A DNA stretch of 22,529 nt, from IMG/VR virus record IMGVR_UViG_3300031566_000397, positions 1-22,529 of that record. One strand, written 5' to 3'. Below are positions 402-17,213 of the stretch, one piece after another. The position numbers were made by a program, and so were the translations under genes. The DNA comes from a virus. Position 1 is the stretch's first letter, and each line of letters opens with the position of its first letter. Below the pieces are notes generated by a model. The model was not told the DNA's origin, ran no database searches, and worked only from the letters and a program-made list of their open reading frames with translations.

Positions 402-986
402 ATGAAACTACATGAAATCATAAACCGTGCAGACATAGCCCGTGACGACAATCCCGAAGAGTCCATGGTGGGGTGGGCGTATAGCACCGCTAAACAGAAG
501 GACGCCAAACAAATAGGCTCCCTCAAATCAAACTTAGACACCGAAGTATATAAATTCCCAGATCATCTTAAAATTTTTGTCATGAATGGTGGGAAACCTG
601 TTGTATATCTAGCACTTGCCACATTTAAAGATGGGTTTAAAGTAAATGTTGTGAATGCCGAGTTAGAAGTAAAGGGCAAAGGCTTGGCCATACAGCTATA
701 CAAAGCTGTAACAAGTAGTACCAACAAACCCATATACAGTGACAGTACCCAAACTGCTGCAAGTAAACATGCTATCTGGAATAAGTTAATACAACAGTTC
801 CCAAATAAAGTAGTTGCCTACGATCAAAGAACCGGTGAAGACTTGCCAATAACTATGACAAAGCAAGGGCCAGCTATAAACGGCAATCAACCAATATATA
901 CTGATCCTAAACGAAACACCGCCGGGGTTAAGGCACCCACAGATGCACAAACACAAAGAACTAGGTTATTGAAACTACTACCATAA
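402..986 (+). CDS. Putative GNAT-type acetyltransferase-like phage protein
   Basis: A 194-residue soluble protein. The central part has an alternating strand pattern (HLKIFVMNGG, PVVYLALATF) followed by VKGKGLAIQLYKAV near residue 91, which resembles the acetyl-CoA binding (Q/R)xxGxG/A motif of GNAT enzymes, and then IYSDSTQTAASKHAIWNKL, a pattern I associate with phage GNAT-like proteins. The substrate is unknown. The N-terminus MKLHEI is shared in form with two other late proteins here (MKLSEI at 5407, MKLSEL at 13610). It is driven by a late promoter only 5 nt upstream and shows no Shine-Dalgarno. It is flanked by tRNA genes on the opposite strand, ending 2 nt before one of them. The enzyme assignment is tentative. 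Confidence 0.6.
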   Translation: MKLHEIINRADIARDDNPEESMVGWAYSTAKQKDAKQIGSLKSNLDTEVYKFPDHLKIFVMNGGKPVVYLALATFKDGFKVNVVNAELEVKGKGLAIQLYKAVTSSTNKPIYSDSTQTAASKHAIWNKLIQQFPNKVVAYDQRTGEDLPITMTKQGPAINGNQPIYTDPKRNTAGVKAPTDAQTQRTRLLKLLP

Positions 987-4741: not shown

Positions 4742-5407
4742 TCATGCAAATCCAAACGGATCAGTAAATACCAACTGTACCCCAACCGGGGTACGCCTAT
4801 ACATAACATTATCAGCATGTAAATCAAGAGAGCCAATATAACCATACTCCCCATTCACGATGTCCTTTAAAAAGTCCAACGCCCATTTAAATTCATCATT
4901 ATTAACAATAAACCTACCATGGTTTTTATTCCAAAAATAAGAAATACAATATAAAGGAATCTGTTCAGCATACTCAAGTAGGGGTGTAAATTTACCAGAT
5001 AGAAAGCGGTTAATCTCCGGCCCCCTGAAATATCGTGAAATCAATTCTCTTAATTCTTCCTCACTAACATTCTTCCACGATACTAATTTTTCCATAGTCC
5101 AATCACGGAACACGCGGCCTTCCGCATCCTTGTCATCGTTTGTGACATATATTCGGGGGAAGTGTATGTTTTTGTTCCATATCTTTTTCTTTTTAAGTAA
5201 CTTCGCATATGAGACAAACGCATCCCCCATTTCATCAGGACGCCTATGGTATTTCGTAATCATATGTGGCTCATCTTCGTCGTGTTTCACAAAGGAAAAA
5301 TGGCCGGGGTCATTAGACAATCCATATTCTTCAGGGTGGCCGCGTTCTTTCGGGTCAAATTCCCGGTGTTTTCTTGTATGTTTTGTTGTTATTTCTGACA
5401 GTTTCAT
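4742..5407 (-). CDS. Kinase-fold (APH/protein-kinase-like) phage protein
   Basis: A 221-residue protein whose C-terminus has the layout of a kinase catalytic centre: GSLDLHADNVMYR (192-204), matching D-L-H-x-x-N of aminoglycoside-phosphotransferase-type enzymes (D195 and N200), then VFTDPFGF (213-220) with D216 in place of the DFG metal-binding Asp. The N-lobe is short and has no clear glycine loop, though K43 or K52 could serve as the ATP lysine. The N-terminus MKLSEI resembles two other proteins in this window. A GATAAATA late-type promoter ends 5 nt before the ATG with no ribosome site, suggesting leaderless late expression. The target is unknown; it could be packaged or act late in infection. 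The fold is moderately sure, activity unproven. Confidence 0.6.
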   Translation of the reverse strand: MKLSEITTKHTRKHREFDPKERGHPEEYGLSNDPGHFSFVKHDEDEPHMITKYHRRPDEMGDAFVSYAKLLKKKKIWNKNIHFPRIYVTNDDKDAEGRVFRDWTMEKLVSWKNVSEEELRELISRYFRGPEINRFLSGKFTPLLEYAEQIPLYCISYFWNKNHGRFIVNNDEFKWALDFLKDIVNGEYGYIGSLDLHADNVMYRRTPVGVQLVFTDPFGFA

Positions 5408-5567: not shown

Positions 5568-5596
5568 AGTATATATTACCCTAAAGTCACTGTCAA
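5568..5596 (-). promoter_or_regulatory. Sigma-70-type promoter for the small membrane protein
   Basis: Reverse-strand TTGACA (5596-5591), a 17-nt spacer and TATACT (5573-5568). The -35 box contains the TGA stop of the glycosyltransferase gene. Confidence 0.8.
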
Positions 5597-6201
5597 CCCT
5601 TTCCAATTTTTCCCTTTGCCTTATACAATGCTTTACTATCGCCCTTAGATGCCCTATGGCATATAATAGCGTGCCTGCTGGGTTCGGGATTATTCACCCT
5701 AAGCATTTCAAAGTAGTCTTCGGGTAATTCATCTACCCGTAAGTTCGTGATAATTTTACCAGAACTCTTCCACATATCATCCAATGATAACTCATCAGAC
5801 CACGTATCCTCGGATATTCTACGGTTCCACTCCTGTAAAAAAGAAAGGGCAGCGTCTGTATAATTTAAATACAATGTACCAACCTGCCATATACGTTTCC
5901 TATGGGGGGCCATTTTTCGTGCGGCAAAGTCAAAGGGGTAATCCCCCTTAAACAGTTCTGGTAATTTCATAAGAGAACCATCCACATCTATCCACAGTAC
6001 CGGGGTCTTTAACTCCTGTAGAGTCTCATAAATAAAGACTGGTTTCATTCGGGTATTTGCAAGGTAATCACCTGTGTCTTTACGTTCAACGATATGATGA
6101 TTCAACCCCATTCGCTCACAATCTCGTATCATTAGACCGGCATACTTCGGATATTTCCATGATCGTGTAAAGAAACTTATAATTGTTGGATACTCATTCA
6201 T
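5593..6201 (-). CDS. Putative GT-A type glycosyltransferase
   Basis: A 202-residue protein. Residues 5-10 give an initial strand, and VLWIDVDGSLMKLP (68-81) contains a DxD motif (D72, D74) that in GT-A enzymes binds the metal and nucleotide sugar. The later GTLYLNYTDAALSFLQEW and SDELSLDDMW segments resemble the acceptor-site region of nucleotide-diphospho-sugar transferases. There is no membrane segment. Its start overlaps the stop of the pyruvyltransferase gene by 8 bp, so the two are translated from one mRNA and probably act on the same glycan. Donor and acceptor are unknown. Confidence 0.7.
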   Translation of the reverse strand: MNEYPTIISFFTRSWKYPKYAGLMIRDCERMGLNHHIVERKDTGDYLANTRMKPVFIYETLQELKTPVLWIDVDGSLMKLPELFKGDYPFDFAARKMAPHRKRIWQVGTLYLNYTDAALSFLQEWNRRISEDTWSDELSLDDMWKSSGKIITNLRVDELPEDYFEMLRVNNPEPSRHAIICHRASKGDSKALYKAKGKIGKG

Positions 6202-6973
6202 TTAAATATGCCTGTAATGGTTTCATTATCTTATTTACATCTATATCTATATCCACTTGGTAGTTAAACTTTCCCAAATCCTCTGGTGGTATACGCTGTT
6301 GGAAGTCAATACACTCAGGAATCAATTTTACAGACTGGAAATAGTCCTTAAATTTCAAACCATCCCCGTTTAGTTTATCAGAATGCTTAACCCATACAGC
6401 GGGTATACCATAAGCGTGGGCTATGATAACTCCATGTAAGGAACTACTGATTATCTTCTCACACTCCAGCACTTGGGCTATGACACGCAGTGGGTTGTGA
6501 TCTAAGGGGTTTATTACCTTTATGTTAGGCAAACCAGTGTACCACTTAGAAACTTGATCTGTGTCAACATAATGAGCAAAGAACCCATATTCATATTTCT
6601 TCTGAACATCTGGTTTGTTAAACACTTTAGGCATAAGCAGTGCCGGGTCACCAAACACAGGATTACATGGTATGCGTTTCTCTTTAAGCTTTTCGTATGT
6701 TAATGGCCCGCGTACGGACAGATACAAAGCATCTCGCTTTAATGTGTCGTTGTCACGCATCATCCCACTACCCCACACTATGGTGTTACTACCCGCATGA
6801 TTAATAATACTGCCAACCCCAATCAATGTTCCAGAGGGAAACGGGCGATGCGTATATACACACTTATATCCAAATAGGCTGTCTAATAGAATGGGGGTTA
6901 GTATGTCTCCGAAGTTCCCGGGTTGTGGACCTTTGGACCACCACGCATTGATTGTACGTTCTGTCTTATTCAT
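6194..6973 (-). CDS. Polysaccharide pyruvyltransferase family protein
   Basis: A 259-residue protein with the recognisable landmarks of the polysaccharide pyruvyl transferase family (CsaB/ExoV type): GNFGD (19-23), IVWGSGMM (65-72), SVRGP (86-90), GDPALL (108-113) and SSSLHGVIIAHAYGIP (176-191). Members transfer pyruvate from phosphoenolpyruvate to sugars, forming ketals on cell-wall or exopolysaccharide. It is cytoplasmic by sequence and the length is somewhat shorter than typical. It is translationally coupled to a glycosyltransferase. A GCTAAATA box 6 nt before the ATG resembles a late promoter and would give almost no leader. A role in altering host envelope glycan or decorating the virion is inferred. 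Confidence 0.82.
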   Translation of the reverse strand: MNKTERTINAWWSKGPQPGNFGDILTPILLDSLFGYKCVYTHRPFPSGTLIGVGSIINHAGSNTIVWGSGMMRDNDTLKRDALYLSVRGPLTYEKLKEKRIPCNPVFGDPALLMPKVFNKPDVQKKYEYGFFAHYVDTDQVSKWYTGLPNIKVINPLDHNPLRVIAQVLECEKIISSSLHGVIIAHAYGIPAVWVKHSDKLNGDGLKFKDYFQSVKLIPECIDFQQRIPPEDLGKFNYQVDIDIDVNKIMKPLQAYLNE

Positions 6974-7067: not shown

Positions 7068-7856
7068 ATGGAACTGTTAAACGAACTTACATCCAACTGG
7101 GAAATTGCGTCTCTAACTGAAGAGATGGATATAGTACTGGCAGAATATAAAGAGTTAATCCTCTTTACTCAACTAAATGAAGGGGTACTAGATGACCTAG
7201 GTGACGAAATAGGTCAGCGGGCCGCTGAAATACAACGTAGAATTGACGTTATAACTAAGGCTAGAGACATAGTAGCTAATCTACAAAAGAACGGGGAGTT
7301 GACGCCGGAACAAATTAAATGGCATAAAAACAACTTGACTAAAAATAGAAAGTCTTTAAGCTCTGCCCTTAAGCGTACATCCTCTAAGATGAAAGCATTT
7401 AAGAAAGCTGCGGCAAAGGCAGTTAAGCAAGCGAAGAGTGATAAACCTAGCAAGAGCCCAGTAGTCGATACCCCTGTTGCTAACCCCGCTGATGACCCTG
7501 TTGATGGTGGACGTGATGTTGATCTAGCAAACGAATTATCTCAACTACACAAACTAGCCCCCATAACATTGAGCAGAATAAAAAGCGGAAGTATAGATCC
7601 TAATAATGTAGATATGGATGATAATAACTATGAGGCTAAAATGGATGCCATAGAAGCCTTGGAAGATGGTGGGTATTTGGCTATGAACGGTAAGCTTACA
7701 GATAAAGGAGAGGCTACTGTGACTGCTATTAGAGGTAAACAACGAACTAGAAGCAGCATAAACCGCTCAAGTGACCCAATAAGTGCCCTTGCGGATATGG
7801 GTGATGATGATGAAATGGATGGAGACTCCCGTCTAAATAAATTAAACTTCAACTAA
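7068..7856 (+). CDS. Late protein with coiled-coil region and C-terminal helical domain (paralogue of the next gene)
   Basis: 262 residues from the ATG at 7068, chosen because it has an AAAGG ribosome site at good spacing and because the N-terminus MELLNELTSNWEIASLTEEM then aligns with that of the next gene. Residues 1-130 are helical and charge-rich, with a Lys/Ala-rich stretch near 115-135. After a Pro/Asp linker, residues about 170-240 form a domain (LHKLAP... LTDKGEATVTAI) similar to one in the protein at 11202-11636. L16-T17-E18 fits the (L/I)xE cleavage rule of T4-type prohead protease, and the homologous position in the next gene also fits. An internal head protein is plausible; no family recognised. 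Confidence 0.7.
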   Translation: MELLNELTSNWEIASLTEEMDIVLAEYKELILFTQLNEGVLDDLGDEIGQRAAEIQRRIDVITKARDIVANLQKNGELTPEQIKWHKNNLTKNRKSLSSALKRTSSKMKAFKKAAAKAVKQAKSDKPSKSPVVDTPVANPADDPVDGGRDVDLANELSQLHKLAPITLSRIKSGSIDPNNVDMDDNNYEAKMDAIEALEDGGYLAMNGKLTDKGEATVTAIRGKQRTRSSINRSSDPISALADMGDDDEMDGDSRLNKLNFN

Positions 7857-7865
7857 GAGAATATC

Positions 7866-8477
7866 ATGCTGCTACTGAATGAACTTACTGATAAATTTGA
7901 AATATCTGCCCTAGCGGAAAGTATTGATTCTATATTACGAGAATATGATGATATAGTTAAAAAAATTCCAATACGGGAGGGTATGTATAGTATGACAGAT
8001 GAGCTAACCAGAAGTCTAGCTCTTCTAGATAATCAAATACAAGAAATAAAAAGTGTCCGGGCGAAAACTAAAGAATTATATCAAAAGGGTGATACCTCTA
8101 AGGAAGACGCCATCCTTTCCCGTAGAGGCCATGTGGCTAAGATGAGAAAGTCGGTAAGTTCGGTTACTGAGTTACTACAAAAGTTCCGCAAATCTATTGA
8201 TGTTTACCTTAACGACAGCAATGAATATCTGAAAACTTCCAAGAACACAATGTTTAAACACGCCAAGAACGATGGTGATATGTCAACAAAAATGCCACGG
8301 AAGGATATAAGAAAAATGCAACAGCAACGCAGTCAGCGAATGGGTAATAAAGGTGAGCAACAACCTACCAATCGACGAAAGTCTATGGCAGCAAAAACAG
8401 ATGTACCGACGTTACGGCAAAAACCGGATCAACGTCGGGGTGAAAGACGAAGGTCTATGGCTACGAGAAACCCTTAA
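7866..8477 (+). CDS. Late basic protein, paralogue of the preceding gene
   Basis: 203 residues, starting MLLLNELTDKFEISALAESI, which matches the preceding protein at about half of the first 30 positions including LLNELT and L-x-E at 16-18. The middle is helical. The C-terminal 50 residues are strongly basic with two related motifs, RRKSMAA and RRRSMAT, suggesting DNA contact. The gene follows its paralogue by 9 bp with AAGAGA as ribosome site, so they are co-expressed late. Its 3' end overlaps the convergent gene by 17 bp, and a perfect palindrome AACCCTTAAGGGTT (8469-8482) covers the stop. Packaged DNA-binding head protein is a reasonable guess. Confidence 0.7.
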   Translation: MLLLNELTDKFEISALAESIDSILREYDDIVKKIPIREGMYSMTDELTRSLALLDNQIQEIKSVRAKTKELYQKGDTSKEDAILSRRGHVAKMRKSVSSVTELLQKFRKSIDVYLNDSNEYLKTSKNTMFKHAKNDGDMSTKMPRKDIRKMQQQRSQRMGNKGEQQPTNRRKSMAAKTDVPTLRQKPDQRRGERRRSMATRNP

Positions 8478-10668: not shown

Positions 10669-10745
10669 TGGCGCTTCGGGTGGGAATCGAACCCACGACG
10701 CAGGATTTTAGAGATCCCCGCTCTGTGCCACTGAGCTACCGAAGC
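10669..10745 (-). tRNA. tRNA with anticodon CTA (amber-suppressor type)
   Basis: The reverse complement is a complete, well-paired cloverleaf: acceptor GCTTCGG/CCGAAGC, U8-A9, D stem GCTC/GAGC, anticodon stem GGGAT/ATCCT (outer G-U), loop CTCTAAA with U33 and anticodon CUA, T arm GTGGG-TTCGATT-CCCAC, G73 and encoded CCA. CUA reads UAG. The loop equals that of E. coli tRNA-Trp (CUCCAAA) with one change, as in the known su7 amber suppressor. It lies between the MazG-like gene (6 nt) and a small gene. The amino acid charged cannot be told from sequence alone; G73 fits Gln, Trp, Arg(UCU) or several others. Confidence 0.9.
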
Positions 10746-11669: not shown

Positions 11670-12305
11670 TTATGGTAATATACTCGAAAAACTCTTTAAA
11701 ATCAATTTCTTGAGATACGCTTGAGCCTTTGGATCATGTTTAACAGCCTCAGCTAATGTCAAAATCTGACGACCAGCCGCATCCTGTTGTAATGATTCAT
11801 AGATTGGGGATGGCATTGCACCGGCGGCTGATGGAGTTACCACCAAGTCACAAGTAACAAAGTTGAATCCACTTACGTTACCATCATCACCAACATCACC
11901 AGTACCTCTACTGGATACTCCATAACGAGCACCACTCTCGGCCATTACCTGTGCAATCTGACCCATCGGGGTGTCTAGGAGCACTGCTTTACCTACAGCA
12001 TTAGTACCATCCATGTACAACTCTTTAATAACATGAGACACTCTGTCCATATTAATTGTCAAAGTCTGTGGATGATCAAGCTCTCCGAAAATACCACCAT
12101 GTGTTTTTATAGTATTTGCGGCGTTATTAACAGCGGTCGCAATCTCAGACAGTGGATATTTACGCTTATTCCTATTCTCAACAACGGCCTGCATAAAAAT
12201 GCCTTTCAGATAGGTCCGTTTAGACCCATCTGCGCCCTTCACACTTTCAGTAATAATATTACCTTCATGTGGCTCTAATGTTTCGATTAATAAATTAGTA
12301 CGCAT
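11670..12305 (-). CDS. 21: Prohead core protease, T4 gp21 family
   Basis: 211 residues, close to the T4 length. The family pattern is clear: GIFGELDHP (71-79) with the catalytic His H78, NMDRVSHVI (85-93), a Gly/Pro turn LLDTPMGQ (109-116), then GVSSRGTG (129-136) holding the catalytic Ser, and VTCDLVVTPSAAG. This serine protease sits in the prohead core, matures itself and cuts scaffold and internal proteins after (L/I)xE sites. Its own N-terminus contains I18-T19-E20, a likely self-processing site. AGGAGG precedes the ATG. It is the last gene of the minus-strand prohead block. Confidence 0.92.
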   Translation of the reverse strand: MRTNLLIETLEPHEGNIITESVKGADGSKRTYLKGIFMQAVVENRNKRKYPLSEIATAVNNAANTIKTHGGIFGELDHPQTLTINMDRVSHVIKELYMDGTNAVGKAVLLDTPMGQIAQVMAESGARYGVSSRGTGDVGDDGNVSGFNFVTCDLVVTPSAAGAMPSPIYESLQQDAAGRQILTLAEAVKHDPKAQAYLKKLILKSFSSILP

Positions 12306-12314
12306 GGTACCTCC

Positions 12315-13031
12315 TTATTTTTGTGCGTTCTTACTATGCTCTTTCCTGACATCATGGGCGTCATATCCGCCATCTGTTTCAAGATCAGAAGCACCACCCG
12401 CGTGAGCGGGCTCAGAACCACCCTTAATAGGGTCTTTTTGTACTTTACGTGGGTCTTTACTGTCGTAATAACCTTTCTTATTGCGGGCATCAGTCTCGTG
12501 ACCACTATGGGCAGGAGAGTTGTCACCTTTGATAGGGTCGTCATAACCATCTTTCTGACCACCATCGTAAGTTCCAGCCTTACCATCTTTGTTACCCAAG
12601 TTCTTAGAGTCAGCCAATCTCTTCATACGGGCCGCTCTACCTGCTTCCTGTTTGGAAACGGCAGGTGAAACTCGTGCAATCTGAGACTCCTCATTGATGG
12701 CATCCTCATTCACTTTGTACTTTTCAGATACAAATTTGTACATGCTATCTAATGTATCAAAATCTTCCTCAAATTTACCATCAGTAGATACGAATTTAAT
12801 ACCGGTTGTTTCGTCGTCGATATCGTTCGTAATTGAACCGATTTTCTTTCCAGCAATGATTACATCATCACCTTCAAGTTTAATCTTGTTTTCTACAGAA
12901 GCTTCTAAAGTCTTCTTAGACTTTTCACTAATGTATGCTGACATTGACTCACGTTCAGCGTCTTGATCGCCATATGCTACGGCATCCACAAAGCTTGAAA
13001 GTGATTCGTATAATTCTGTTTTCTTATCCAT
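12315..13031 (-). CDS. Prohead core/scaffold-like protein
   Basis: 238 residues. The N-terminal 40 residues (VDAVAYGDQDAERESMSAYI...SEKSKK) resemble the ALSRGDHEAA...VMASKM module of the three paralogues upstream and the N-terminus of T4 prohead core protein gp67. Residues about 125-238 are polar, Gly/Asp/Lys-rich and likely disordered, with a repeat DPIKGDNSPAHSG / DPIKGGSEPAHAG. Position just before the protease gene matches T4 core genes 67/68/22. A scaffolding or core role is inferred from position and composition; only the module similarity is seen directly. Confidence 0.65.
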   Translation of the reverse strand: MDKKTELYESLSSFVDAVAYGDQDAERESMSAYISEKSKKTLEASVENKIKLEGDDVIIAGKKIGSITNDIDDETTGIKFVSTDGKFEEDFDTLDSMYKFVSEKYKVNEDAINEESQIARVSPAVSKQEAGRAARMKRLADSKNLGNKDGKAGTYDGGQKDGYDDPIKGDNSPAHSGHETDARNKKGYYDSKDPRKVQKDPIKGGSEPAHAGGASDLETDGGYDAHDVRKEHSKNAQK

Positions 13032-13286: not shown

Positions 13287-13610
13287 TTATGCTCCACCTC
13301 CGGCTCCACCACCAGCACCACCACCAGCACCACCTCCGGCACTCCCAGCGGCTCCACTTCCAGCGGCTCCTCCGCCGTCTCCGGCTGGGGCTCCACCATC
13401 ACCTGTGGGGGCTGCACTATTTCCATCACCACTGTCACCAGTGTCAATGGCCATTTTTGTTCCACCTACACCATACATATCTTTCTGTTTGGTACGTGGT
13501 ACTTTGCTGATTGCCTCAGCATTGTCCGTATATACGTTAGGTAGTGGACCACCTGATAAATTAGTTTCATTACCCGGGGACACTACATTAGCAAGTTCAC
13601 TCAATTTCAT
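13287..13610 (-). CDS. Gly/Ala-rich low-complexity prohead-region protein
   Basis: 107 residues. The N-terminal 55 are ordinary (MKLSELANVVSPGNETNLSG...), and L3-S4-E5 fits a prohead protease site. The C-terminal half is almost only Gly, Ala, Asp, Pro and Ser and ends in tandem GGGA units, so it is flexible. The ATG overlaps the end of the upstream gene (TAAATG) with AGGA as ribosome site. Function unknown; a core filler or linker protein is possible. Confidence 0.65.
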   Translation of the reverse strand: MKLSELANVVSPGNETNLSGGPLPNVYTDNAEAISKVPRTKQKDMYGVGGTKMAIDTGDSGDGNSAAPTGDGGAPAGDGGGAAGSGAAGSAGGGAGGGAGGGAGGGA

Positions 13611-14183
13611 TTAACTAATCCTATCGTCCATATCACGAGTTCCACGATCCATCATGTCGTCGTCACCTAGGTCATCATTATAATTATGAGAAACTTCGGG
13701 GTCTGTGTGCGGCTTTGCTTTCATTTTTAATTCTTCAATTGCAGCCCTAATGTTCTTAGCTGGCTTAGAATTTCTCCCACCATTACGAACTATGCTATCC
13801 AAGCTCATTGTCAAGTTATCAATGTCTCGTTGAATGGCATCGGCATCTTGGAATTCTGGATCATCTGCGGCATTATAACCGTAATCCTGTCGGGCCATTC
13901 CCATGCTATCCATATCTGCATCCATATCTGGATCGCTAAAAGCATCGTATTCACGAATACGACTACGACCACGTACTCCACGTTCAGCACCTCGTTTCAT
14001 ATTAGCATGGCGATTCCCACCACCCATACGATTCATACGTGCTCTCATAGGGTTGCCTTCTGTTAACTCTGCCGACTTAGCCATTTTACTAGCCATGACT
14101 TCAGATGAAGCCTGCTGTGCTGCCTCGTGGTCACCACGGGACAATGCCATTACCATATCTCTAATTTTATCTCTATCTGCCAT
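13611..14183 (-). CDS. Prohead-targeted cargo-like protein A (shared N-terminal module)
   Basis: 190 residues. Residues 5-34 (DKIRDMVMALSRGDHEAAQ... to ASKM) are nearly identical to those of the next two genes, with an L-T-E site at 40-42. The following part is Arg/Met/Asp-rich, with MRARMNRMGGGNRHANMKR and later DMDADMDSMGM, and is unlike the other two. The module resembles the gp67-type prohead core N-terminus (helix, GD turn, AA helix). I infer that the module guides the protein into the prohead core and is cut off by the gp21-like protease, leaving the C-terminal part inside the capsid. Confidence 0.72.
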   Translation of the reverse strand: MADRDKIRDMVMALSRGDHEAAQQASSEVMASKMAKSAELTEGNPMRARMNRMGGGNRHANMKRGAERGVRGRSRIREYDAFSDPDMDADMDSMGMARQDYGYNAADDPEFQDADAIQRDIDNLTMSLDSIVRNGGRNSKPAKNIRAAIEELKMKAKPHTDPEVSHNYNDDLGDDDMMDRGTRDMDDRIS

Positions 14184-14998
14184 TATCTTTCCTATTAGCT
14201 ATTGTTACCAATCATTGGCGGCATCACGATCATCGCCCCAAGGGTCTGGATCATCGTCACCGGGTAAATGATCAAATGTATTTCTGGCACCAGTCCACTC
14301 CCCGGACATCTCAGCGTCTGGGTATGCTGCCTTGGCTTCTTCATAACTATCAAACGAATCTAAAAACTGAATTAAGTCTTGACCAGCTAATACTGAATTA
14401 GGTCCGTACCCGTCTTGTTTTATACCCTTTACGTCAAACCCATCACCGTGCTTAGACCTATGTATTTCATAATAGTCATAGTCTCTTTCGGATCTACGTG
14501 ATTCGGTAATTCCAGCCATTTTACTAGCCATAACCTCAGATGAAGACGATTGTGCTGCCTCGTGATCACCACGGGACAGTGCCATTACCATTTCTCTAAT
14601 TTTATCTTTGCCACTCATTTTAATTTCCTATTTCTCTATTGAAATAATCCAAATCAGCACGTGTGTTACCACCCGCTTCTTGTTCAGCGGCGCGATGTAT
14701 ATCATCCTTAGCCTCTGGGGATAATTTATCCCAAAAATTTTCTATTCCTCCGCTAATTTCTCCGTTCTGATACTTATCGTTCAGTTCATAATGAGTATCA
14801 TCAGACACCCCCGATATATCTTCCCATCCGTAACCTTGGAATATTTCTGGGTATTCGTCCATTCCATTGCCCGGACGATCATGGTGGGCCTCATTCATAG
14901 TTTTAGACATTTTACTAGCCATAACCTCAGATGAAGACGATTGTGCTGCCTCGTGATCACCTCGTGAAAGGGCCATTACCATTTCTCTAATTTTATCT
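14082..14998 (-). repeat. Three 91-bp copies encoding the shared N-terminal module
   Basis: Copies at 14082-14172, 14517-14607 and 14908-14998, each exactly 91 bp. The second and third are almost identical in DNA; the first is more diverged. Sequence between copies is unrelated, so the module was duplicated or exchanged on its own. Confidence 0.85.
14205..14618 (-). CDS. Prohead-targeted cargo-like protein B (shared N-terminal module)
   Basis: 137 residues. Residues 5-34 repeat the DKIREMVMALSRGDHEAAQ...ASKM module, with I37-T38-E39 as a candidate protease site. The rest (about 98 residues) begins SRRSERDYDYYEIHRSKHGD and looks like a small folded domain with mixed charge, ending in an Asp/Trp-rich tail (DPDPWGDDRDAANDW). 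No family recognised. AGGA lies before the ATG. It stands between two genes with the same module, co-transcribed with portal-proximal genes. Confidence 0.72.
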   Translation of the reverse strand: MSGKDKIREMVMALSRGDHEAAQSSSSEVMASKMAGITESRRSERDYDYYEIHRSKHGDGFDVKGIKQDGYGPNSVLAGQDLIQFLDSFDSYEEAKAAYPDAEMSGEWTGARNTFDHLPGDDDPDPWGDDRDAANDW

Positions 14999-15012
14999 GT
15001 ATCATTACTCAT
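14620..15012 (-). CDS. Prohead-targeted cargo-like protein C (shared N-terminal module)
   Basis: 130 residues. Residues 6-35 repeat the module, followed by M39-N40-E41, a weaker match to the (L/I)xE cleavage rule. The C-terminal 88 residues form an acidic globular-looking domain with several Trp/Tyr (IFQGYGWEDISG, FWDKLSPEAKDDIHRAAEQE), unrelated to proteins A and B. The start overlaps the upstream gene by 8 bp. Function of the cargo part is unknown; by analogy with T4 internal proteins it could be delivered into the host. Confidence 0.72.
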   Translation of the reverse strand: MSNDTDKIREMVMALSRGDHEAAQSSSSEVMASKMSKTMNEAHHDRPGNGMDEYPEIFQGYGWEDISGVSDDTHYELNDKYQNGEISGGIENFWDKLSPEAKDDIHRAAEQEAGGNTRADLDYFNREIGN

Positions 15013-15512: not shown

Positions 15513-17213
15513 TTACGCCGTTCCGGGTGCTGGTGCCTCTGAACCTTGGCCTAATGGCTCCTCTCCGCCAACCGCACCAATCTCTTTATTATCACCAGTA
15601 TCTTCATCACCCATCTCTTCATCACCTAATTCTGATTCCCCTTCTGGTGGTGCACCACCCGGGGCACCTCCACCCATACCACCATCAAGACCACCAGCCT
15701 CTGCGTCTTCTGGTTGATATATCAAGGACAAATCCCTATCATCACCCTCTGAATCCAATCCCTTCTCTTTACGGATCATATTTTCATTGAGTCTAATTTC
15801 ATCTTTACTCAGACCAGCATAACGTTCTAATATGAATCGCTTAGACAAGTATGGTACGCCATCGGCGGTACTAAAGTTATTAAGCATATCAGCGTCCATG
15901 GCCTGTTGACGAGATTGATGATACTCAGAACACTCAGGTAATGTAATACGGTACAGGGTTGCATCTATATGTACACCGGAATCATATACCCATCGTTTGA
16001 ACTCAGCATCCAATACATCCTCTACATACCTCTGTAGTCGTTGTATGAACTGTGAGAACTTAATCTCCTGTACATATGCCAACCCAACTCTGGATTCGTT
16101 CTCGATAGCCTGACCGTCTTCGGTGGATGTACCAAGATAAGATGCCGGGATACGTAATGCTCTCCACATCTTACGGTAAAAATAATCCAATTCTGTTAAT
16201 TCACCAAGACCCTGTCCGGCTGGGAGTGTTTCTACCCTTGAGCTATTACCGTTTGGTCTTGTTGCGAAATAGAAATCCTCGTTCATGCTCTGTGGGTTAT
16301 AGACAGATTCAACCTGCCACTTACCACCATAGCGAACTGGAGTTTTCTTTTGTTTGATTTGATTTCTAAACTTTTCTAATACACCGGGTACCAAATGATC
16401 CGGGCGATTACCAACATCTATATAAAACACCCGCTTTTCGGGGGCTCTAGATATTCGGTAAATTAAAATGGAGTCTTCTAATAATTCCTTCTGCTTAAAC
16501 ACGCGGTATGCCGGTCTTAACACGGATATACCAAACGGTGCTTCCTCAGACATATCATCTGTAATGCTGAAACGAATTATCTTATCCTTATCCATAGGGG
16601 TAACATTGTAATCTGCTATGTCACCATGGGTCTGGAATGAGAGGCTTGCTTGCCAATACTGATTGGGCTTCTTATATTCCTGTTGAACATACCACCCACG
16701 AATGTCTGTGAGATCATCCTCAGAGACGATGGCACCTATAACGTGCTTAGGGTGAATATATTTGAACGGCTTATTCTTATCCTTGCCTCTTTCAAAGAAG
16801 CAATCACCATACTTTATCATGTTTCTGGATAAGTGAAATAATCGACCACTCTGCCAGTGATGTATTTTACACCAAGTTTTAAGGGCCGCTCGGAGGGTTG
16901 CAAACACATGACCGGGCACATTCTCTTCTGATCCAGCCTCAACCATTATGTTGAGAGGCATACGAGTTTTAGGGTTGTTACCCGCCATCTCCTCTGCCAT
17001 TATGTCCAAAGCCCGGGCTACGTCAATGTCATTATCCATCACATCATATTCGCGATAACGCACTAGACGTGTCGTTGAACCCTGTATAACTCGCTGGTAC
17101 CAGCCATGATTGCCGTATAAACCCCTACCACCAGAGATGTCCTGATTATTTGAAATCGCAACATTCGGTGACTGAGGTGATATTACTTTAAAGTATGTTT
17201 GTATTGTGCTCAC
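15513..17213 (-). CDS. 20: Portal vertex protein, T4 gp20 family
   Basis: 566 residues against 524 in T4. The N-terminal region (YREYDVMDNDIDVARALDIMAEEM, 53-76) is the standard start of the gp20 portal core, followed by the clip/stem region (EDSILIYRISRAPEKRVFYIDVGN, KKTPVRYGGKW, LPAGQGLGELTELDYFYRKM). The last 60 residues are a disordered Gly/Pro/Glu-rich extension. The portal forms the dodecameric ring through which DNA enters and leaves the head. The start is GTG at 17213 with AGGA 7 nt upstream; the overlapping ATG runs straight into TGA. A late promoter lies 27 nt upstream. The identification is firm. Confidence 0.95.
   Translation of the reverse strand: MSTIQTYFKVISPQSPNVAISNNQDISGGRGLYGNHGWYQRVIQGSTTRLVRYREYDVMDNDIDVARALDIMAEEMAGNNPKTRMPLNIMVEAGSEENVPGHVFATLRAALKTWCKIHHWQSGRLFHLSRNMIKYGDCFFERGKDKNKPFKYIHPKHVIGAIVSEDDLTDIRGWYVQQEYKKPNQYWQASLSFQTHGDIADYNVTPMDKDKIIRFSITDDMSEEAPFGISVLRPAYRVFKQKELLEDSILIYRISRAPEKRVFYIDVGNRPDHLVPGVLEKFRNQIKQKKTPVRYGGKWQVESVYNPQSMNEDFYFATRPNGNSSRVETLPAGQGLGELTELDYFYRKMWRALRIPASYLGTSTEDGQAIENESRVGLAYVQEIKFSQFIQRLQRYVEDVLDAEFKRWVYDSGVHIDATLYRITLPECSEYHQSRQQAMDADMLNNFSTADGVPYLSKRFILERYAGLSKDEIRLNENMIRKEKGLDSEGDDRDLSLIYQPEDAEAGGLDGGMGGGAPGGAPPEGESELGDEEMGDEDTGDNKEIGAVGGEEPLGQGSEAPAPGTA

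Follow-up and report, generated by a model that had tools for sequence, protein, structure and literature searches.

In phage T4, the internal proteins are packaged via an N-terminal propeptide, the capsid targeting sequence (CTS) of 10–19 residues, which binds the core and is then removed, the T4 protease cleaving after L/I-x-E (PMC9026906). Foreign proteins fused to this propeptide are packaged and delivered, and the internal proteins are basic (PMC9026906). In the CTS of IPIII, an aspartate at position 10 prevents processing while leaving targeting intact (PMC9026906). Cleavage breaks T4 gp67 and gp68 into several pieces, most of which are lost (PMC9026906), and their genes occupy the interval between portal and protease. 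Moreover, head proteins of the giant phages SPN3US and phiKZ carry longer propeptides that are removed by the prohead protease and have been proposed to target ejection proteins (PMC5694885).

Here we describe three tandem genes, A, B and C, of a large T4-like bacterial virus, which have in common an N-terminal module of about 91 bp and about 30 residues with sharp edges, and which differ in their remainders. We consider it probable that this gp67-type module acts as a removable propeptide that targets interchangeable cargoes to the capsid, the three products being prohead-core fusions. Such an arrangement would share with IPI, IPII, IPIII and Alt of T4 an N-terminal propeptide on different proteins and exchangeable cargo (PMC9026906); the L/I-x-E triplet of the T4 proteins is matched by LTE of A and ITE of B, and by MNE of C only loosely. 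However, in contrast to the short CTS and the basic internal proteins, the tag has about 30 residues, is apparently of core-protein origin and sits in the core-gene block, and the cargoes are acidic. The best reading is that the module works like the T4 CTS without being homologous to it. The SPN3US and phiKZ propeptides, likened to the module by description, share with it a position at the N-terminus and a length well beyond the CTS, yet most of them exceed 100 residues (PMC5694885).

The portal–protease interval

The window analyzed here is a whole virus record of 22,529 bases, representing a genome fragment. Between the portal (phrog_213) and the prohead protease (Peptidase_S77), the gene order is ORF146, C, B, A, ORF107, ORF79 and ORF238 (Table 1). 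All three reading frames are open and terminate in TAA, rendering a stop-codon or frameshift explanation superfluous. ORF238 carries a diverged N-terminal module of the same family, with a pairwise module score of 49 compared to a shuffle maximum of 37. Judged by the protease, the nearest named phages are XacN1, RAS14, PA5oct, Atu_ph07 and Phosso, all large T4-like phages. An identical A/B/C arrangement was recovered in a second contig, L004, with 99.99% identity and one mismatch over 15.8 kb, perhaps representing the same virus population.

Table 1. Coordinates in the window of the three fusion genes, their parts and neighboring head genes
Feature	Position	Strand	Remark
Gene A	13611–14183	−	ORF, 190 aa
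Module of A, gp67-like, residues 5–34	14082–14171	−	DKIRDMVMALSRGDHEAAQQASSEVMASKM
Predicted protease site of A, LTE 40–42	14058–14066	−	L/I-x-E rule (PMC9026906)
Linker of A, residues 40–82	13938–14066	−	basic; common to L006 and L008 long copies
C-terminal part of A, residues 83–190	13614–13937	−	common to L008; different sequence in L006
Gene B	14205–14618	−	ORF, 137 aa
Module of B, gp67-like, residues 5–34	14517–14606	−	included in AlphaFold2 helix-turn-helix 3–15 / 19–44
Predicted protease site of B, ITE 37–39	14502–14510	−	
Cargo of B, SVLAGQ-family domain, about residues 48–128	14235–14477	−	occurs alone on plasmids and in unrelated viral contigs
Gene C	14620–15012	−	ORF, 130 aa
Module of C, gp67-like, residues 6–35	14908–14997	−	
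Possible protease site of C, MNE 39–41	14890–14898	−	weaker rule match
Cargo of C, 89 aa	14623–14889	−	sole relative found is the near-identical contig
Prohead protease, gp21 type (Peptidase_S77)	11670–12305	−	family match
ORF238, prohead-core protein with diverged N-terminal module of the same family	12315–13031	−	profile E = 0.00019
Portal protein, gp20 type	15513–17213	−	family match

A shared module with the features of a gp67 N-terminus

The sequence-only reading had proposed that A, B and C begin with an almost identical stretch, encoded by 91-bp copies with unrelated flanks, and both observations hold. N-terminal alignment scores of the three proteins reach 143–144, compared to a shuffle maximum of 48, and the 91-bp repeat was recovered mechanically from the DNA. 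BLASTN of B against C returned a single ungapped match of 91 bp at 95.6%, and identity per 10-bp bin amounts to 7–10 of 10 within the repeat and 0–6 of 10 beyond it. From IR onward the module of C equals that of B at the protein level, the DNA differences being purely synonymous. In the AlphaFold2 model of B, the module forms two helices, comprising residues 3–15 and 19–44.

In nearly all other T4-like contigs and phages examined, the same interval encodes between one and three proteins that resemble the module at their N-terminus and in many cases continue into an acidic tail. We built a distant-family profile exclusively from 31 of these proteins and ran it against every six-frame ORF of the window and its relatives. 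ORF238 and the module proteins outranked all other ORFs: short copies scored E = 4e-6 to 1e-5, ORF238 0.00019, C 0.0013, B 0.012, A 0.02 and the L050 copy 0.27, with the first other ORF at 0.74. The lineage module profile matched the distant-family profile with P = 8.7e-9. Moreover, the joint family profile aligned to T4 gp67 in hhalign with P = 2.5e-5 and a probability of 75.1 over 34 columns, while shuffled gp67 reached at most 2.9, in support of the resemblance to the gp67 N-terminus suggested earlier. The direct HMM score against T4 gp67 is 7.4, with a shuffle maximum of 5.6, a match that is distant and in register. PHROG 1064, the gp67 family, matched neither the three proteins nor the short module copies. 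The two profile comparisons identify the module as a divergent N-terminus of gp67.

With T4 gp67, the three genes thus share the location between portal and protease, about 34 N-terminal columns in register and an acidic character. However, gp67 is a protein of 80 aa with an acidic tail, whereas the module here heads proteins of 130–190 aa with different domains, and a small stand-alone form is seen in the relatives L005, L006 and L008 only (51, 59 and 61 aa, respectively). In another lineage, represented by L020, the module is fused to about 90 residues, and a close relative, L021, has a 47-aa stand-alone copy. A separate domain, EDHxxxMTxExMxxxL..., recurs in this interval and in most cases follows the module (L009 7766, L010 7784, L018 6280, L019 5621, L020 4586, L058 3791 and L059 9787), and is not present in the 47-aa copy of L021. 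A pattern scan of genome contigs for the module yielded one match only, in L032, which was dismissed as a coincidental antisense hit in a bacterial contig of high GC content.

Cargo parts of B, C and A

Behind the module, B carries a domain of a family of small stand-alone proteins, here called SVLAGQ, found on plasmids and in 12 further unrelated viral contigs. The members share YxxxSVLAGQ...FxDxFxxxEEA...YPxA...HLP with the cargo of B, the plasmid proteins of pBVIE05 and pAWOD_2 being 53% identical over 58 aa and 47% over 66 aa, respectively. A profile of 13 members made without B, searched against the ORFs of the window and relatives, retrieved B with E = 1.6e-22. In contrast to B, all other members found are stand-alone, the module being absent from all 11 tested viral contig records with the domain; conversely, none of 20 relatives of the phage contains the SVLAGQ domain. 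Since the other members found stand alone and lack the module, B is, on this distribution, a real fusion of tag and cargo. The string GPNSVLAGQ in L093 and L094 falls within other proteins and does not represent the domain.

Pfam, NCBIfam and PADLOC contain no match to the SVLAGQ family above cut-off, B has no PHROG match, and the motif is not printed in the literature searched. AlphaFold2 predicts the cargo of B as a domain of three strands, a helix and a strand, with a pLDDT of about 81–89 in the core. Foldseek returned no PDB match at E ≤ 0.001, and an AP2-like fold was discarded as not significant (WRINKLED1, Foldseek probability 0.63, E 0.67; ERF096, profile E 0.22). The best match in the viral library is A0A6J5N932, an unnamed phage protein of 78 aa (E 4.8e-3, probability 1.00).

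The cargoes of C and A found nothing in phage searches and 20 relative records, nor did that of C in plasmids, and the AlphaFold2 model of C is of low confidence past the module. Searches for defense or counter-defense families returned no match. Past their xE sites, the cargoes of A, B and C are acidic, with pI values of 5.1, 4.2 and 4.3, respectively. The earlier proposal that the C-terminal parts are unrelated is sustained for A versus B and A versus C (shuffle p 0.89 and 0.74). It is less clear for B versus C, which gave a shuffle p of 0.0055, yet the B-family profile detects C with just E = 8.5.

Past the module, A matches L008 with 62% over 146 aa, and L006 over 45 aa only, followed by a different C-terminus; by alignment, the C-terminus has been swapped behind module and linker in L006. 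Together with the stand-alone occurrence of the B cargo, this bears out the suggested exchange of C-terminal parts, and across the related genomes module and C-termini do not always co-vary.

Predicted protease sites

An xE triplet behind the module in all three proteins had been put forward as fitting the rule of the gp21-type protease. The positions are correct (LTE, ITE and MNE; Table 1) and the triplet is conserved in relatives, but MNE of C breaks the strict L/I-x-E rule. Among the distant proteins, 24 of 31 have an [LI]xE starting at residues 30–42, compared to a shuffle mean of 8.1. Within the lineage of the window, six of ten have one starting at residues 30–45 (shuffle mean 1.4, p 0.0002), a range picked after sites at 43 had been noticed, and four of ten in the narrower range of 30–42 (p 0.02). 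The rule has exceptions in this lineage: neither C, with its MNE, nor the short copies from L006 and L008 have a strict site. A contains two additional [L/I]xE sites, the internal IRE and IEE, while the cargo of B has no additional [L/I/M]xE.

Evolution of the module copies

Module copies are closer to each other within a genome than to copies with orthologous cargo elsewhere, and a tree that groups the A-type modules by cargo type was rejected (AU p 0.001, with 90 columns and few taxa). The modules of B and C differ by four synonymous and no nonsynonymous changes, and the two copies of L006 encode an identical protein with two synonymous differences. In this small data set, selection for one protein sequence together with recent duplication or conversion would explain the uniformity of the module.

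Proposed role and alternative explanations

As prohead-core fusion proteins, A, B and C would engage the assembling scaffold core through the predicted helical hairpin of gp67 type, and any sequence fused behind the hairpin would be incorporated into the prohead. As the head matures, the gp21-type protease would cut after the xE triplet just behind the module, and the cargo would be packaged, retained and ejected. The cargo is envisaged as exchangeable, that of B being a domain possibly drawn from a pool of small phage and plasmid accessory proteins. Because the portal–protease interval of the contig, itself a fragment of a genome that may hold a stand-alone module gene elsewhere, contains no such gene, the fusions may also perform the structural job of gp67. 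At the sequence level, the proposal is carried by the module family, the synteny, the conservation of xE, the fusion and exchange of cargo, and the apparent selection on the module protein. PA5oct has a module-bearing protein at the same place, annotated in its record as found by ESI-MS/MS, which supports the presence of such proteins, or their fragments, in virions.

Alternatively, A, B and C could be ordinary gp67-type scaffold proteins, whose tails fill core volume, get degraded and diverge under little constraint, with no cargo delivery. They are indeed gp67-like, acidic and located in the core-gene block, and many relatives have just an acidic tail after the module. Likewise, a module-bearing protein need not survive, as T4 gp67 and gp68 are themselves fragmented and largely lost (PMC9026906), and A contains the internal IRE and IEE. 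These extra sites, the acidic cargoes, the MNE of C and the absence of a strict site from two short relatives (L006, L008) count against the tag–cargo reading. However, the tail of B is predicted to be a folded domain, is conserved and found alone in plasmids and other viruses, and lacks further triplets, while that of A is kept in L008; we regard the scaffold explanation as rather unlikely. The array may also be a by-product of duplication or recombination at an expansion-prone locus, where a new gene behind the module keeps the promoter and start of a head gene and no targeting role is selected. The sharp repeat edges fit such an origin, as do further small genes inserted into this block in L008 and L050. 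The two module pairs, with 0 nonsynonymous versus 6 synonymous differences, nevertheless require protein-level selection, and conservation of the xE site that follows the module extends to distant phages, making this explanation highly improbable.

Returning to the module as a removable capsid-targeting propeptide, a wider scenario can be advanced tentatively. In this phage lineage, the gp67-type core protein itself may have become the cargo carrier, with a core built of tag–cargo fusions, accessory proteins shared with plasmids and phages captured behind the tag and virion-delivered, and tag copies kept uniform by within-genome recombination. Head-carried phage proteins are otherwise hard to recognize, and a gp67-type module followed by xE and a foreign domain between portal and protease offers a sequence-only handle for finding candidates for such proteins in large phages. 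The unnamed SVLAGQ family would represent a candidate virion-delivered protein. Moreover, the locus suggests that scaffold-core genes, besides T4-type CTS genes, may evolve into cargo loaders.

Other features of the window

In this lineage and other T4-like phages, many ORFs have a start of the type MK[LITVF]xx[LIFVM], often with xE within 22 residues. The frequency is 7.6% of ORFs, while unrelated phages reach 1.5% and internal Met positions 0.3%, and the start is possibly a second, short, CTS-like tag; examples are 13287–13610(−), 4742–5407(−) and 402–986(+) in the window, 2824 and 4238 in L008, and 10682 and 11467 in L050. A second tandem pair, 7068–7856(+) and 7866–8477(+), also has a common N-terminal stretch (MELLNELTSNWEIASLTEEMD / MLLLNELTDKFEISALAESID) followed by divergence, with an N-terminal score of 87 and a shuffle maximum of 45.

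The region 5593–6973(−) encodes a polysaccharide pyruvyl transferase (PF04230, E 4.6e-16); the adjoining gene may encode a nucleotide-sugar transferase, with a PF03407 match (E 3.7e-4) that narrowly misses the cut-off. Nine tRNA genes (Gln, Pro, Tyr, Leu, Glu) are clustered at 309–2970(−), with a similar cluster in L006, where other repeats of about 80–96 bp turned out to be tRNA genes. A further tRNA at 10669–10745(−) has the amber-reading anticodon CTA and is called Pyl by ARAGORN; a TAG stop is found in just 2 of the 31 likely genes of the window.
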